A stretch of DNA of 64,000 bases from NCBI RefSeq assembly GCF_025642135.1, contig NZ_CP106793.1, forward strand, positions 1,178,001-1,242,000, written 5' to 3'. Origin of the DNA: Streptomyces cynarae (GTDB lineage: Bacteria > Actinomycetota > Actinomycetes > Streptomycetales > Streptomycetaceae). How positions within the stretch are numbered: the first letter of the stretch is position 1; each line of letters starts with the position of its first letter. The position numbers were made by a program, and so were the translations under genes. Below the pieces are notes generated by a model that was not told the DNA's origin, ran no database searches, and saw nothing but the letters and a program-made list of their open reading frames with translations. Below are positions 12,803-19,297 of this stretch, piece by piece.

Positions 12803-14227
12803 GTGGACTGGTTCGTCGCACCGGAGTACTGGCTGAGCCGACTGGTCTTCCAGCGGGCCCTGGCGGTGGTGTACCTCGTCGCCTTCCTGACCGCCGCGCT
12901 GCAGTTCCGGGCGCTGATCGGGGAGCGCGGCATGCTGCCGGTGCCGCGCTACGTCGCCCGGGTGCCGTTCAAACTGGCGCCCAGCGTCTTCCACTTCCAC
13001 TACTCGGACCGCTTCTTCGCCGCCTGGTCGTGGGCGGGGTGCGCGGTGTCGGCGGCGCTGGTCGCGGGGGCCGACTCGCTGGTGCCGTTGTGGGCGGGGA
13101 TGGTGCTGTGGCTGATCCCGTGGCTGCTGTACCTGTCGATCGTCAACGTCGGCCAGACCTGGTACTCCTTCGGCTGGGAGTCGCTGCTGCTGGAGGTCGG
13201 CTTCCTTGCGGTGTTCCTGGGCAACGACGAGGTGGCGCCGCCGATCGTGGTGCTGTTCCTGTTGCGCTGGATCCTGTTCCGCCTGGAGTTCGGCGCAGGG
13301 CTGATCAAGATGCGCGGGGACGCCTGCTGGCGGCAGCTGACCTGCCTGGACTACCACCACGAGACGCAGCCGATGCCGGGCCCGCTGAGCTGGTTCTTCC
13401 ACCATCTGCCCAAGCCGCTGCACCGGGTGGAGGTGGCGGCCAACCACGTCACCCAACTGGTCGTCCCGGTCCTGCTGTTCACCCCGCAGCCGGTCGCGAC
13501 GGCCGCCGCGTCCCTGATGATCGTGACGCAGCTGTGGCTGGTCCTCTCGGGCAACTTCTCCTGGCTTAACTGGATCACGATCGTGCTGGGCCTGTCGGCG
13601 GTCCTGTTCCCCACCACTGCCCCGAAGGTCTCCGCTGCTCCCCTGTGGTACGAGGTCCTGGTCCTGGCGGTCGGCGCGGGCCTGCTCGCCCTCGGCTACC
13701 ACCCGGTACGCAACATGATCTCCCGCGGCCAGATCATGAACCGCTCCTTCGACCCGCTGCACCTGGTCAACACCTACGGCGCGTTCGGCAGCGTCAGCCG
13801 GATCCGGTACGAGGTGGTGGTGGAGGGCACAGCGGACGACGTGCCGCGGGAGGACTCCGAGTGGCGGGAGTACGAGTTCAAGGGCAAACCGGGCGATCCA
13901 CGGCACTGGCCGCGCCAGTTCGCCCCATACCACCTGCGGCTCGACTGGCTGATGTGGTTCGCGGCGCTGTCCCCCGCGTACGCGGGGTCCTGGTTCGGCG
14001 GCCTGGTGGAACGTCTCCTGGAGAACGACCGCGACACCCTGAAGCTGCTGCGCCGCTCCCCCTTCCCCCCGGACGAGCCGCCGCGCTACATCCGGGCGCG
14101 CCTCTTCCGCTACCGGTACACGACGTGGCGTGAACTGCGGGAGACGGGGGCCTGCTGGCACCGCACCTACGTCCGCGAGTTCATGCCACCGACCCGGCTG
14201 GCCGCGCCGGTGACTCAAAGGCGGTAG
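12803..14227 (+). CDS. Lipase maturation factor family (LMF1-like) membrane protein
   Basis: 474 residues with five to eight membrane segments and the LMF1 family pattern: FQRALAVVYLVAF, QTWYSFGWESLLLEVGFLAV, FRLEFGAGLIKMRGDACWR and LDYHHETQPMPGPLSWF, then a soluble C-terminal domain with YEFKGKPGDPRHWPRQFAPY. In animals LMF1 helps lipases fold; the bacterial role is not known to me. The start is GTG 12803 with GGAG upstream. Its end overlaps the end of the convergent lactonase gene by 13 nt. Confidence 0.88.
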   Translation: MDWFVAPEYWLSRLVFQRALAVVYLVAFLTAALQFRALIGERGMLPVPRYVARVPFKLAPSVFHFHYSDRFFAAWSWAGCAVSAALVAGADSLVPLWAGMVLWLIPWLLYLSIVNVGQTWYSFGWESLLLEVGFLAVFLGNDEVAPPIVVLFLLRWILFRLEFGAGLIKMRGDACWRQLTCLDYHHETQPMPGPLSWFFHHLPKPLHRVEVAANHVTQLVVPVLLFTPQPVATAAASLMIVTQLWLVLSGNFSWLNWITIVLGLSAVLFPTTAPKVSAAPLWYEVLVLAVGAGLLALGYHPVRNMISRGQIMNRSFDPLHLVNTYGAFGSVSRIRYEVVVEGTADDVPREDSEWREYEFKGKPGDPRHWPRQFAPYHLRLDWLMWFAALSPAYAGSWFGGLVERLLENDRDTLKLLRRSPFPPDEPPRYIRARLFRYRYTTWRELRETGACWHRTYVREFMPPTRLAAPVTQRR

Positions 14228-15054
14228 ACGCGGGTGGCGGTGCCCTCGAAGATCTGGCGGCGCTCGTCGTCACGGAGGCCTTCCGTCAGCGCCACCGCCG
14301 CGTCCGAAACGTCCGCGTACGTCGCCGCCAGCGTGCACACCGGCCAGTCCGATCCGAACATCAGCCGGGACGGGCCGAAGGCCTCCAGGACCGTGTCGGT
14401 GCAGGGGCGCAGGTCCTCCACCCGCCAGGTCTTCCAGTCCGCCTCCGTCACCATGCCCGACAGCTTGCAGACCGTGTTCGGCAGGGCGGCGAGGGCACGG
14501 ATGCGGGACGCCCACGGCTCCATGGTTCCGGAGGCGATCGGGGGTTTGCCCAAGTGGTCCAGGACGAAGGTGAGTTCGGGAAGCGACTCCGCCGCCTTGA
14601 CGCACGCCGGGAGCTGGTGGGGCAGCACCAGCAGGTCGTAGACCAAGCCCGCGTCCGCGACGGCGGCGAGGCCCCGGCGTACGTCGGGGCGCAGCAGCCA
14701 CTCGGGGTCCGCCTCACCCTGGACCTGGTGACGGATGCCGCGCAGATACGAGCCCCCGGGCAGCTCCCGCAGGCGGGCCAGCGTGTCCGCCACGTCGGGG
14801 CTCGTCAGGTCCGTCCAGCCGACGACTCCCGCGACGATCTCGTTCCGCTCCGCCAGGTCCAGGAACTCCGGCGTCTCCTCGGCCACGGTGACCGTCTGCA
14901 CCAGTACGGTGCGGTCCACGCCGACGGGGCGGGCCAGACGTTCCAGGTCCGCGATCGTGAAGCTGCGGCGGATCGGCTCCAGTTCCGGGCCCCTGATCCA
15001 GTCCTGGTCGCGGACGGAGAGGTCCCACACGTGGTGGTGCGCGTCCACGGTCAC
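14215..15054 (-). CDS. Amidohydrolase 2 family, probable L-fucono-1,5-lactonase
   Basis: 279 residues. Family motifs include DAHHHVWD (N-terminal metal-site histidines), RGIRHQVQ, FVLDHLGKP and LMFGSDWPV. In L-fucose oxidation this family opens L-fuconolactone to L-fuconate, and the neighbours (mutarotase, aldo/keto reductase, SDR) fit that pathway. The start is GTG 15054, which overlaps the mutarotase stop as GTGA; the frame is open further upstream but only through the mutarotase gene. It is the last gene of the operon and could act on a related sugar lactone. Confidence 0.85.
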   Translation of the reverse strand: MTVDAHHHVWDLSVRDQDWIRGPELEPIRRSFTIADLERLARPVGVDRTVLVQTVTVAEETPEFLDLAERNEIVAGVVGWTDLTSPDVADTLARLRELPGGSYLRGIRHQVQGEADPEWLLRPDVRRGLAAVADAGLVYDLLVLPHQLPACVKAAESLPELTFVLDHLGKPPIASGTMEPWASRIRALAALPNTVCKLSGMVTEADWKTWRVEDLRPCTDTVLEAFGPSRLMFGSDWPVCTLAATYADVSDAAVALTEGLRDDERRQIFEGTATRVYRL

Positions 15055-15407
15055 GGCAGCTCCCAGACCACCGGCAGGCCCGCGTCCGAGCCTTCGGCCG
15101 AGTAGTCGTGCACCACGTCGAGCAGATCCGCCATCCGTGCCTGCCAGGCGACGTTGACGGGCAGCTTCTCCGGCTCGGCCAGCAGCCGCGTGTAGTCCTC
15201 GCACTCCAGTACGTGGAAGAGGTCGGTCCCTCCCCCGAGCTCTCGGCTTCGCTCGAGCAGGGGGTACCCCCACCGCCAGATGGTCCAGGAGGTCGTTCCG
15301 GCGGCACGGATCGCGTCCGTGAGCTCCTTCGGCACCTCCCGGTGGGCGGCCTCGTACTCCTCGACGCGGTCGGCACGGACCTTGGTGTGCAGGGCTACTC
15401 TCATCAC
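15051..15407 (-). CDS. L-rhamnose/L-fucose mutarotase (RhaM-like) carrying an in-frame repeat insertion
   Basis: 118 residues, about 14 longer than the usual 104. It begins MRVALHTKVRADRVEEYEAAH and contains TSWTIWR and DLFHVLECEDYTRLLAE, the RhaM pattern. Between WTIWR and DLFHVLEC lies GYPLLERSRELGGG, encoded by a palindromic Streptomyces interspersed repeat. The extra segment falls in a surface-loop position by family pattern, but whether the enzyme still works is unknown. It speeds alpha/beta anomer exchange of the sugar. It is coupled by about 4-nt overlaps to the upstream aldo/keto reductase and the downstream lactonase. Confidence 0.85.
   Translation of the reverse strand: MMRVALHTKVRADRVEEYEAAHREVPKELTDAIRAAGTTSWTIWRWGYPLLERSRELGGGTDLFHVLECEDYTRLLAEPEKLPVNVAWQARMADLLDVVHDYSAEGSDAGLPVVWELP
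15228..15272. repeat. Interspersed palindromic repeat inserted in the mutarotase gene
   Basis: About 45 bp with an imperfect inverted repeat (CCCCC-GA-GCTC ... GAGC-A-GGGGG) followed by GGGTACCCCCA. It resembles the small GC-rich palindromic elements scattered through Streptomyces genomes, usually between genes. Here it lies inside a coding frame and keeps the frame open. Confidence 0.7.
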
Positions 15408-16387
15408 GGCTCCTCAGTGGGCACGGGGGCGTGCGGGGGCAGGAGGCCGGCTTCTCTCAGCTCCTGCCAGAATCCGGCCGGTACGGTCGCCGCGAACTGC
15501 TCGGCGCAGTCGCGCACCTCGGCCGCCGAACGGGCGCCCACCAGTACGCTCGCCACGGCCGGGTGCGCGGAGCAGAACGCCAGGGCCGCGGCCCGCAGCG
15601 TGGTGCCGTGGCGTTCCGCCAGCGTCTTCAGGCGCAGGGCGCGGTCGAGCAGTTCCTCGGGGGCCGTGGCGTAGTTGAACGTGGCGCCCGGCCGCGGGTC
15701 GGCCAGCAGGCCGGAGTTGAAGGCGCCGCCGACGACGACCGACACCCCGCGTTCGGCCGCCGCGGGCAGCAGCTCGGTCAGGGCGCGCTGGTCGAGCAGG
15801 GTGTACCGGCCCGCGCACAGCACCACGTCCACGTCCGTCTCGCGCACGAACCGGGTCAGCATCTCGGCCTGGTTCATGCCCGCGCCGATCGCCCCCACCA
15901 GGCCCTCGGAACGCAGCCTCTCCAGCGCCGGGTAGCCCTCGCGGAACGCCTGCTCGGCGTGGTCGTCCGGGTCGTGCAGGTAGACCACGTCGACCCGGTC
16001 CACGCCGAGCCGTGCGAGGCTTGCTTCGAGACCGCGTCGTACGCCGTCCGCGCTGAAGTCCCAGACGCGGCGATGGGTGGCGGGGACCGCGAAGCCGTTC
16101 GCGAGGTCGTCGCCGCCCTCGTCCGTGGGCTCAAGCAGGCGGCCCACCTTGGTGGAGACGGTGTACGCGGTGCGGGGGTGCTCGCGCAGGGCAGCGCCGA
16201 GGCGGCGTTCGGACAGGCCGAGGCCGTAGTGCGGGGCGGTGTCGAAGTAGCGGATCCCGCTCTGCCAGGCGGCTTGGACCGCGTCGTACGCCTGCTCCTC
16301 GCTCATCTCGCTGTAGAGGTTGCCGATGCCCGCGGCGCCGAAGGCCAGCGGGCTGACCTCGACCCCGCGCCCGCCGAGCGCGCTCAC
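15404..16387 (-). CDS. Aldo/keto reductase, probable L-fucose dehydrogenase
   Basis: 327 residues. The AKR catalytic tetrad is visible: Asp and Tyr in YFDTAPHYGLGLSE, Lys in VSTKVGRLLEP and His in VVYLHDPDD. The sequence type matches bacterial D-threo-aldose/L-fucose 1-dehydrogenases, which oxidise the sugar to the lactone using NAD(P). It starts at GTG 16387, overlapping the SDR stop (GTGA), and is followed by the mutarotase with a similar overlap. The position in the operon supports the L-fucose assignment. Confidence 0.85.
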   Translation of the reverse strand: MSALGGRGVEVSPLAFGAAGIGNLYSEMSEEQAYDAVQAAWQSGIRYFDTAPHYGLGLSERRLGAALREHPRTAYTVSTKVGRLLEPTDEGGDDLANGFAVPATHRRVWDFSADGVRRGLEASLARLGVDRVDVVYLHDPDDHAEQAFREGYPALERLRSEGLVGAIGAGMNQAEMLTRFVRETDVDVVLCAGRYTLLDQRALTELLPAAAERGVSVVVGGAFNSGLLADPRPGATFNYATAPEELLDRALRLKTLAERHGTTLRAAALAFCSAHPAVASVLVGARSAAEVRDCAEQFAATVPAGFWQELREAGLLPPHAPVPTEEP

Positions 16388-17138
16388 CGGCCCACCGGCC
16401 GCAGCCTGAGGCCCTGCATGCCGCCGTCCACAGCGAGCGCCGTGCCCGTGGTCGCGCCGGACAGGGGCTCGCCAAGTAGGCGATGGCGCCCGCCACTTCG
16501 ATGGCCTCGACCAGTCGGCCGGTGGGCTGGCGGGCCTCGAGCGCCGCCCGTTCGGCGGCCGGGTCCGGGGCGGCGTCGAGGAGGCGGCCGACCCACGGCG
16601 TGTCGACCGTGCCGGGGTTGACGCAGTTGACGCGGATGCCCTCGCGGACGTGGTCGGCGGCCATGGCGAGGGTCAGCGAGTAAACGGCACCCTTGCTGGC
16701 GCTGTACAGGGCCCGCTGCGGCAGGCCCGCCGTGGCGGCGATGGAGCAGGTGTTGACGATCGCCGCGTGGGCGGACTTCCTCAGGTGCGGCAGCGCCGCT
16801 CGGGTCGTCCGGACGACGCCGAGCACATTGACGTCGAACACCCGCCGCCACTGCTCGTCGTCGTTGTCCTCCACCGTGCCCTGGGCGCCGATGCCCGCGT
16901 TGTTGACCAGCACGTCCAGACCGCCGAGGCCCGCGACGGCGGCGGCGACGGCGGCCCGTACGGACGCGTCGTCGCCGACGTCCGCCCGGTGGGCGAGCAA
17001 CGGCTTCTCGACCTGCGAGGGGTCGAGGTCCAGGACGGCCACCTGTGCCCCGCGCTCCAGCAGCAGCTCCGCGGTGGCCCGACCGATGCCGGAGGCCCCG
17101 CCGGTCACCAGGGCCCTGAGGCCCTCGAAGTCGCTCAT
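16384..17138 (-). pseudogene. SDR oxidoreductase (probable 2-keto-3-deoxy-L-fuconate dehydrogenase), one frameshift
   Basis: About 250 residues when rejoined. The N-terminus (ATG 17138) has the Rossmann motif VTGGASGIGRA, LVNNAGIG and the catalytic YSASKGAV. Near 16470, in a run of C, the frame changes after AIAYLAS and continues one base out as PLSGATTGTALAVDGGMQG, the normal SDR ending. One base added to the C-run restores the protein, so a base-calling error is likely. It lies in the L-fucose operon after the 61-codon scar (ATGA overlap) and before the reductase (GTGA overlap). Confidence 0.82.
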
Positions 17139-17320
17139 GCAGCGTGCCCCTTCTTGGGGTTGAGGAAGTGTTCGTGCAGATGGTCCACGTATTCGATCAC
17201 CCGGTCGTGGGTCGTGTCCGACAAGGCGCCGAAGTCGAACAGCGCGGGGTGCTGTTCGAGAACGGAAGGTGGGCCCTCGGGGCCGATGACGCCTCGCGCC
17301 TCAACCGGTGGCGTGCTCAT
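17135..17320 (-). pseudogene. 61-codon deletion scar: start of an ABC ATPase joined to the end of an L-fuconate dehydratase
   Basis: The first 22 or so codons (MSTPPVEARG ... GPPSVLE) look like the leader of a sugar ABC ATPase just before its first strand. The remainder (ALFDFGALSDTTHDRVIEYV then DHLHEHF) matches the closing segment of enolase-superfamily L-fuconate dehydratases. The start overlaps the binding-protein stop as ATGA and the stop overlaps the SDR start as ATGA. A single deletion from early in the ATPase gene to late in the dehydratase gene would remove ATPase, permease and dehydratase and leave exactly this. Family matches are from memory. It may be translated but should have neither activity. 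Confidence 0.6.
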
Positions 17321-18399
17321 GGGAACGCGTTGCCCCAGAGGTGAGGGTCGTCGACGTTGCGCCTGGTGACCAGCGGGGCGGGCAGCTGGTCCTCCAGGAT
17401 GCCGCTCGGCAGCCTGACGATGGTGGAGCCGTGGTCGGTGCGGCCGGGCCTGAACGTCTTCCCCTCCATCGCGGCCTTGATGTAGCACAGGCCGTACTTG
17501 GCGTACGCGTCCGTGGGCTGCGAGACGGTGGCGTCGATCTCGCCCTTGCGGATCGCGCCCAACTCCAGCGGGATGCCGTCGTTGGAGACGATGACGATGT
17601 GGCCCGGCCGACCGGCCGGCTTGAGCATGTTCTGGGACTTGAGGGTCTGTAGCGTGGGCAGCAGGTAGACGCCTCCGGCCTGGAGGTAGATGCCCTTGAT
17701 GTCGGGGTTGGCGCCGAGGAGCGTGCCGAGCTTGGCGGCTGCGGTGTCGGACTCCCACTTGGCGGGGACGTCCAGCACCTCCAGCTTCGGGTACTTCTTC
17801 TCGACACAGGAGCGGAAGCCCTCCGACCGGTCACGTCCGTTGACCGAGTTGAGGTCACCCTCGATCTGCACGATCTTGCCGCTGGGCACGTGCTGCCCGA
17901 GGTAGTCGCAGGCCTTCTCCCCGTACGCCACGTTGTCGGCGCGTACGGTCATCGCGACCCTGCCCTTGTCGGGCGCGACGTCGACGGCGACCACCGGTAC
18001 GCCCTTGCGTCGGGCCTGGTCGAGCCCGGCCTCGATGGCCGAGCTGTCCACCGGGGCGATGACCAGGCCCTTCGCGCCCCGGTTGAGCTCGTTGAGGATG
18101 TCGGTGTACTGCTGCAGGGAGTCGCTGTTGGAGTTGACGGTCGGGAGGGCGTCGACGTGCTCGGCCTTCGCCATCTTGGGCACGTAGTCGTTGTACGACT
18201 GCCAGAACGGCGAGATGAGCTGGGGCAGGATCACAGCGACCGTACCGCTGCGGCCCGGGGCGCTCGAGCTGCCCTCACTCTTGGTACCGGCGCATGCCGT
18301 GAGCGCCAGCGCGCCGCAGGCGGCCGCAGCCGTCGCACGCACCGCCCACGCGGAGGTTCGCCTGCTTCGCCGTCTGTCCCGCGCTGCACTGCCGGCCAC
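17317..18399 (-). CDS. Sugar ABC transporter substrate-binding lipoprotein (Peripla_BP_4)
   Basis: 360 residues. The signal peptide has an LTAC lipobox, and a type-I sugar-binding fold follows (VAVILPQLISPFWQSY, GAKGLVIAPVDSSAIE, VPVVAVDV, HIVIVSNDGIP). Relatives bind simple sugars such as ribose, rhamnose or fucose. GTG 18399 is chosen because AGGAGG lies just upstream; the frame stays open to 18447. Its stop overlaps the scar ORF. No ATPase or permease follows, so import through it is probably lost unless another system supplies them. A half operator for the divergent GntR regulator lies upstream. Confidence 0.85.
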   Translation of the reverse strand: MAGSAARDRRRSRRTSAWAVRATAAAACGALALTACAGTKSEGSSSAPGRSGTVAVILPQLISPFWQSYNDYVPKMAKAEHVDALPTVNSNSDSLQQYTDILNELNRGAKGLVIAPVDSSAIEAGLDQARRKGVPVVAVDVAPDKGRVAMTVRADNVAYGEKACDYLGQHVPSGKIVQIEGDLNSVNGRDRSEGFRSCVEKKYPKLEVLDVPAKWESDTAAAKLGTLLGANPDIKGIYLQAGGVYLLPTLQTLKSQNMLKPAGRPGHIVIVSNDGIPLELGAIRKGEIDATVSQPTDAYAKYGLCYIKAAMEGKTFRPGRTDHGSTIVRLPSGILEDQLPAPLVTRRNVDDPHLWGNAFP

Positions 18400-18452
18400 C
18401 CGTCGGCTCCTCCTCTCCTCAAGCGAGATCCACCGGTCCCCCCGCACACTTA

Positions 18453-18462
18453 TTAGACCACT
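18453..18462 (-). promoter_or_regulatory. Second, partial operator next to the operon -10 region
   Basis: TTAGACCACT repeats one half (GACCACT) of the palindrome at 18512-18526. On the reverse strand it abuts TAATAA, a plausible -10 for the leftward fucose operon. Repressor binding here would block that promoter. Confidence 0.45.
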
Positions 18463-18511
18463 CGTAGCCGACAGCGCCCTTCCGGGTCAGTTTTTTGCGA
18501 TTTACAGGTGT

Positions 18512-18526
18512 AGTGGTCCGACCACT
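18512..18526. promoter_or_regulatory. FadR/GntR-type operator between regulator and fucose operon
   Basis: AGTGGT-CCG-ACCACT is a perfect 6-3-6 palindrome. Its core TGGTCCGACCA fits the TGGTCNGACCA pattern of FadR-subfamily GntR proteins. It sits 43 nt before the regulator start, as expected for autoregulation and for control of the divergent operon. Confidence 0.7.
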
Positions 18527-18568
18527 CCTCGGGCTAGACTGCGGCGCACCGGCGACAGGAGGAGTGGC

Positions 18569-19297
18569 GTGGACGAGACCGCCGACGGGGAGCCGACGGC
18601 CGGGACCGGCACGCAGAAGGGCACGGTGACCCAGCGCGCCATCGAGTGGATCAAGGCGATGATCGCCGAAGGCCGGCTCGAGCCGGGCCAGCGCCTGCCG
18701 ACGGAACGCGACCTCGCGGCACAGCTCGGCATCTCGCGCAGTTCGATGCGGGAGGCGATCCGCGCGCTCACGGTCCTCGGCGTGCTGGAGGCCCGGCACG
18801 GCTCGGGCATCTACGTCACCCGACTGGAGGCCGGGGACCTGCTGGAGACCTTCGGCGTGGTGGCCGATCTCTCGCGCGGGCAGCGCCTGGTGGAACTGCT
18901 GGAGGTGCGCCGGGTCCTGGAGTCGACGGCGACGGCGCTGGCGGCCGCCCGTATCACGGCCGACCAACTCGCCGAGGTGGAGAAGCACTTGGCGGCGATG
19001 AACGCGACGGACGATCCGGAGGAGATCCTCGCGCACGACCTCGCCTTCCACCGGGAGATCGCTGTCGCGGCGGGCAACGAGACGATGGCGGCGATCCTGG
19101 AGGGCCTGTCCTCGCGGACGTTCCGCGCCCGTGTGTGGCGCGGCTATGAGGAAGAGGGCGCCTTCGCACGCACCCGCCGCGAGCACGCGGCGATCCACCG
19201 CGCCCTGGCCGCGCACGACCCGGAGGCGGCCAGGGCGGCGGCCGCCGCGCACGTCGGCGAGGTGGAGGAGTGGCTGCGGAGCCAGTTGCCCTCCTGA
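18569..19297 (+). CDS. GntR family (FadR subfamily) transcriptional regulator
   Basis: 242 residues. A winged helix at residues about 18-80 (QRLPTERDLAAQLGISRSSM, then AIRALTVLGVLEARHGSGIY) is followed by an FCD ligand-binding domain (about 95-235) with Asp and three His in the usual metal-site positions (HDLAFHREIA, EHAAIHRAL, HVGEVEEW). AGGAGG precedes GTG 18569. It is divergent from the fucose operon and should repress it until a pathway intermediate binds. The palindrome at 18512 is its likely site. Confidence 0.9.
   Translation: MDETADGEPTAGTGTQKGTVTQRAIEWIKAMIAEGRLEPGQRLPTERDLAAQLGISRSSMREAIRALTVLGVLEARHGSGIYVTRLEAGDLLETFGVVADLSRGQRLVELLEVRRVLESTATALAAARITADQLAEVEKHLAAMNATDDPEEILAHDLAFHREIAVAAGNETMAAILEGLSSRTFRARVWRGYEEEGAFARTRREHAAIHRALAAHDPEAARAAAAAHVGEVEEWLRSQLPS

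Follow-up and report, generated by a model that had tools for sequence, protein, structure and literature searches.

A 61-codon chimeric frame in Streptomyces cynarae, probably an old, multi-step loss scar in a fucose-type operon

What is a 61-codon open reading frame doing between a sugar-binding protein gene and a dehydrogenase gene, where related streptomycetes carry a transporter ATPase, a permease and a dehydratase? The question arose in a 64,000-nucleotide stretch of Streptomyces cynarae DNA (NZ_CP106793.1, positions 1,178,001 to 1,242,000; hereafter the window), in which the first-pass annotation had read this frame, the scar, as starting like a sugar ABC ATPase and ending like L-fuconate dehydratase. 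We hold with high confidence that it is an old multi-step loss scar in a redundant L-fucose-type operon, a reading that combines an older allele, recombination and repeated decay, with the scar perhaps preserving coupling. The genes of the locus are the following.

18569..19297, plus strand: GntR/FadR-type regulator gene, divergently transcribed (NCBIfam FadR-type matches, all below cut-offs; adjoins in relatives)
17317..18399, minus strand: orphan sugar-binding lipoprotein gene (Pfam Peripla_BP_4; start as in P0007), full length, with accelerated evolution by dN/dS
17138..17320, minus strand: 61-codon chimeric ORF, the scar (from the sequence; whole-length homologue P0002, 82% identity)
16387..17138, minus strand: SDR dehydrogenase gene, frame broken near the C-terminus (split match; whole in the copy of genome G258)
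15404..16387, minus strand: aldo/keto reductase gene (Pfam)
15051..15407, minus strand: L-rhamnose mutarotase-type gene, rhaM (Pfam)
14215..15054, minus strand: amidohydrolase gene, L-fucono-1,5-lactonase-like (Pfam; NCBIfam FuconLaconase, E 1e-69)

The SDR frame break could be a sequencing slip rather than a real mutation. The lactonase-like match scores 235 bits, against an NCBIfam equivalog cut-off of 400. Inside the rhaM frame, a 41-base GC-rich stretch (15230-15270) adds residues that are absent from the relative L119; it occurs once in the window, some twenty listed places in G258 are similar to it (84-96% identity), the G258 rhaM also has it, and no inverted repeats were found at the insert at the settings used. 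Among the titles and abstract openings of a literature search, none names the window's locus.

The alignment to strains with a full operon proposed at first pass was carried out. We searched 61 genomes with the window DNA and fetched the best-matching places, so that the relatives are the best matches among 60 other genomes and not a random sample. Twelve of the 17 loci fetched from other genomes were used in the operon comparison; L130, L131, L134, L135 and L136 (G013 twice, G023, G010 twice) have other arrangements and were left out. Regulator, binding protein, ATPase, permease, dehydratase, SDR and aldo/keto reductase genes stand together in 10 of these 12 loci outside the species, in ten other Streptomyces genomes. 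The mutarotase gene is found in eight of the ten full loci and the lactonase-like gene in nine, L123 being counted without both because the fetched stretch ends there and L128 without the mutarotase. The two remaining loci, L132 and L133 (G024 and G026), have the regulator and the dehydratase without binding protein, ATPase and permease, and one of them is also without rhaM. Transporter loss from a fucose-type operon thus recurs in two other species. In L124 (G014), one stop codon lies within the binding-protein match of an otherwise full operon, and in G010:C2 (L135, L136) the binding-protein gene is matched at about 496.8 kb and again at 513.7-514.5 kb, as though an insertion or rearrangement had separated two pieces by about 17 kb.

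We take the full operon to be that of the non-phosphorylative L-fucose pathway, with L-fuconate dehydratase and a CUT2 ABC importer. The name fuconate dehydratase is drawn from the source name of P0004, the lactonase-like neighbour and general pathway knowledge; the NCBIfam matches of the L119 dehydratase, ATPase and permease and of the window binding protein all stay under curated cut-offs. The window's binding protein, SDR, aldo/keto reductase, mutarotase and lactonase-like amidohydrolase match the fuller operons of the relatives, whereas its ATPase and permease are gone, its dehydratase is reduced to about 40 codons and its SDR frame is broken. All 11 loci checked for it have an ATGA in which the dehydratase stop overlaps the SDR start; in L127 and L128, outside that count, ATGA is visible around the SDR start. 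Like the window, 11 of 13 loci have an AGAAGG or GGAAGG run ahead of the SDR start.

Read directly from the sequence, the scar runs from an ATG at 17320 to a stop at 17135-17137. In the ORF list it is part of a longer open frame beginning at 17758, and 231 codons are open in all. We chose the ATG at 17320 because it is the one that corresponds to the beginning of the ATPase, and an identical prediction of 61 residues is in the protein database (P0001, present on 2 contigs). The four-nucleotide ATGA overlaps described at first pass are there at both ends, with the binding-protein gene and with the SDR gene. DNA comparison with the relatives bears out the chimera of an ATPase start and a dehydratase end, and divides it as follows.

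17285..17320, minus strand: piece from the 5' end of a sugar ABC ATPase gene, 36 nt, about 12 codons (DNA match)
17261..17284, minus strand: filler, about 24 nt
17157..17260, minus strand: piece of the L-fuconate dehydratase C-terminal region, 104 bases (DNA matches)
17138..17156, minus strand: last six dehydratase codons (KKGHAA), joined straight to the SDR gene (126-nt loss relative to G258)

In 10 of the 13 loci, the DNA match crosses from the end of the binding-protein gene into the beginning of the ATPase gene; it extends as far as 17285 in L119 and L122 and stops short of that in the remaining ones. The comparison also covered the ATPase starts of five relatives. The dehydratase piece is matched in 13 of 13 loci at 74-83% DNA identity, two of them over shorter spans. 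Matches to this part of the scar in 249 of 392 genomes of the genus, counting the window's own, at E <= 1e-6 show that it is no chance match. No convincing source of the filler was found in 15 loci compared (the best ungapped match has 6 mismatches); by eye, six bases at its start may be read as ATPase codons that follow an in-frame loss of 9 nt (three codons). With G258 as reference, a second, in-frame loss of 126 bases, or 42 codons, lies inside the dehydratase part, and the scar as compared here records at least two losses with the frame open across both. The claim that one deletion explains the missing ATPase, permease and central dehydratase therefore stands as regards the loss and falls as regards the single event. 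The six codons left after the second loss contain the Shine-Dalgarno-like AGAAGGGG ahead of the SDR gene. The scar's about 40 dehydratase codons fall short of the about 440 residues of a full-length enolase-superfamily protein, its about 12 ATPase codons hold neither the ATP-binding motifs nor the two ATPase domains, and no Pfam family matches the scar protein at E <= 10.

G258 is listed as the same species as the window. It holds the region twice, at C12:107500-121500 (L158) and C9:26500-40000 (L159), identical over 13,501 bases, whether through a terminal inverted repeat, through duplication or as an effect of assembly. In the G258 binding-protein gene, residues 2-182 are matched, one stop codon interrupting the alignment, and the gene then gives way to permease residues 218-342; the G258 dehydratase match is whole and without stops. 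The G258 deletion differs from that of the window: the binding protein is joined to the permease and the dehydratase is kept. Comparison of the two genomes further delimits one feature.

17157..18638, no strand: divergent allele block versus G258, 70-86% identity in comparable parts against 90.5-100% on the flanks

On the flanks, identity reaches at least 95% in 38 of 43 steps of about 200 bases and 90.5-94.5% in the other five. Within the block it is 70-72% at 18638-18190, 86% from 18190 to 17891 and 79% in the dehydratase piece, window positions 17890-17262 being without counterpart in G258, and from 17156 on it is back to 97%. For the pair of window and G258, the binding protein gives a dS of 0.289 in its first part, whereas the regulator gives 0.062, the SDR 0.061, the aldo/keto reductase 0.051 and the amidohydrolase 0.085. 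Matches under 60% coverage were dropped from the gene sets, which took L132 and L133 out of both binding-protein sets, G258 out of the second and L123 out of the amidohydrolase set. Trees of the regulator, SDR and aldo/keto reductase join window and G258 with support of 100/99 or better. The binding-protein tree also places them side by side, weakly (68/43), on branches of about 0.24 for the window and 0.045 for G258. Because the flanks are mostly 95-100% identical to G258 but the block only 70-86%, we conclude that the block is an allele older than the split between window and G258 that the flanks record. Either the window allele or the G258 allele probably came in by recombination, most likely from a near relative.

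The block contains the binding-protein gene. Its product matches Peripla_BP_4 over the full domain (E 2.1e-48, profile positions 1-257 of 258), has a lipobox-like LTAC by eye, and is a predicted sugar binder; the locus holds this binding protein only, and not the CUT2 set of binding protein, ATPase and permease together. In its first part, dN/dS is 0.52 to G258 (0.150/0.289) and averages 0.43 from the window to ten others against 0.16 among those others, and in its second part 0.35 against 0.21, all values that saturation of silent sites inflates. At otherwise constant sites, the changes found in the window only are non-synonymous in 26 cases and synonymous in 1 for the first part (11 other rows pooled, 15/17), the second part giving 22 and 5 (10 other rows pooled, 26/24), ratios inflated in the same way; some single other rows also exceed 1 with fewer changes, such as L120 in the second part (5/1) and several rows in other genes. 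The database cluster of this protein has 4 member sequences. P0008, encoded on a 1319-base contig, is 84% identical to it. Of 240 columns that do not vary among 13 other Streptomyces proteins, 20 are changed in both, to the same residue in 14 cases. Such columns are broken 33 times by the window protein (one of these being its GTG start) and 30 times by P0008, against 0-7 times by any one of the 13 when that one is left out; these 13 were picked by hand, whatever their operon context, from 120 listed of 2715 matches. By these shared changes and broken columns, P0008 belongs to the same divergent line as the window protein.

Could this lipoprotein, then, have been kept and re-shaped in the absence of its permease, as another transporter's partner or a sensor, next to a selected 61-codon frame that carries ribosomes to the SDR gene? 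We consider this unlikely, while giving it more credit than the other alternatives. Under random change the binding-protein frame stays open in 19% of simulations after 60 substitutions, 7.8% after 100, 2.7% after 150 and 1.1% after 200, figures that depend on the number of substitutions assumed and so give no more than a mild hint that some constraint on the protein persists. Residues that would correspond to the sugar contacts of Escherichia coli RbsB appear to be kept in the alignment. Substitutions clustered at the presumed permease-facing part were also looked for. Of the 17 mature-part changes common to window and P0008, seven lie in a span of 27 residues (scan p about 0.01). The full set of 39 changed columns shows no clustering (p 0.42), however, and we give this candidate little weight. 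According to PMC12980723, the D67R change of RbsB affects transport and not chemotaxis; two of the shared changes lie at most 2 residues from the position matching D67, with the clustering as weak as stated.

We prefer the reading of the scar as a relic of old losses, and its occurrence elsewhere bears on this. A search of 5.8 billion proteins (length limits 0.55-1.75 times the query, E <= 1) gave six matches: the window's own, P0002, and four resembling dehydratase ends, one of them so named. P0002 has 61 residues, is 82% identical to the scar over its full length (11 residues differ by our own count) and has identical first and last residues. Its source is a 946-base metagenome contig, and we would guess that P0008 comes from the same organism. 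Among 392 genus genomes and 395 relatives (the latter at E <= 1e-13), two sets that overlap, only the window's own genome gave a whole-length match; the genus-genome matches listed start at residue 21 and end by residue 59, with the window itself at 1-61, and in a scan of genome contigs the scar was matched from residue 21 or 23 onward only, among at least 80 loci listed.

Two diverged copies alike in length, start, end and frame, a 126-base gap that is a multiple of three and the retention of both ATGA overlaps are what a working small protein or leader peptide under selection would show, and a whole-length homologue in the same gene context had been named as the mark of a real small gene. 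P0002 supplies half of this, a homologue over the whole length on a 946-base contig that shows no neighbours. A shared scar would also be expected to have identical junctions, and P0002 by itself therefore does not make the frame a working small gene. The lack of a Pfam match and of any other whole-length copy in the genome searches also speaks against this possibility, as does the openness of the frame, which is expected by chance: 73% of simulated frames of this length stay open after 18 substitutions, and openness is therefore no evidence of selection. Any purifying selection on the 61 codons is putative, the comparison with P0002 being one of proteins, and we judge a functional small protein improbable.

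A single recent deletion in the window strain would fit a frame that is still open among mostly intact-looking neighbours, and the first-pass annotation had thought the event possibly recent. We reject this as very improbable: the same chimera recurs in P0002 at 82% identity, the allele block is divergent with a dS of 0.289 against 0.051-0.085 on the flanks, and the 126-base loss is a second event. The scar looks shared with another lineage and old rather than recent, because the whole chimera recurs at that identity and sits in a divergent block within flanks that are mostly 95-100% identical to G258. An assembly artefact uniting two separate places, as paralogous clusters might induce by misleading the assembler, is hardly credible given an independent metagenome protein of equal length and ends, a 2-contig assembly with the region within a 9.05 Mb contig, and other clusters whose genes share no more than 44-83% protein identity with the query genes.

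That the missing parts may be supplied elsewhere is supported by two such clusters in the same genome. One comprises regulator, permease, ATPase, binding protein, dehydratase, SDR and aldo/keto reductase, the other binding protein, ATPase, permease, dehydratase and amidohydrolase; in both, matches cover 89-100% of the queries without internal stops, and the CUT2 importer set is therefore complete at two other loci. These clusters likely act on the same substrate as the decayed operon.

We therefore return to the scar as the product of old, multi-step loss. Comparison with the full operons of the relatives shows ATPase, permease and most of the dehydratase to have been lost, in more than one old step, from an L-fucose-type operon. 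The scar allele predates the split of the window and G258 flanks, and the mosaic of identity suggests that one of the species' alleles entered by homologous recombination. Since G258 lost its transporter by a different deletion, decay is repeated within the species, probably because the two other clusters, both present, cover the function. The 61-codon frame is probably inert as a protein; its six retained codons carry the Shine-Dalgarno-like run and it is open, so that ribosomes may follow a continuous path from the binding-protein gene to the SDR start over both ATGA overlaps. Such coupling would serve an SDR gene that is itself frame-broken in the assembly. Also counting against this scenario are the lack of a second genome with the scar in the overlapping sets of 392 and 395, the short contig of P0002 that shows no neighbours, the choice of the relatives as best matches, and the binding-protein tree that puts window and G258 together, if weakly (68/43).

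Deletions that remove an intervening stretch and fuse two gene ends in frame leave ordinary pseudogenes in bacteria, and the scar resembles these in being such a fusion. It differs in being found in two diverged lineages and within a block that looks recombined. The locus shows one operon in decay through different deletions within a species, and a broken allele that persists and probably moves as a block. What becomes of an import protein after its membrane partner is lost can be tested on the orphan binding protein, which evolves fast. Otherwise, this is ordinary genome erosion, probably buffered by similar clusters.
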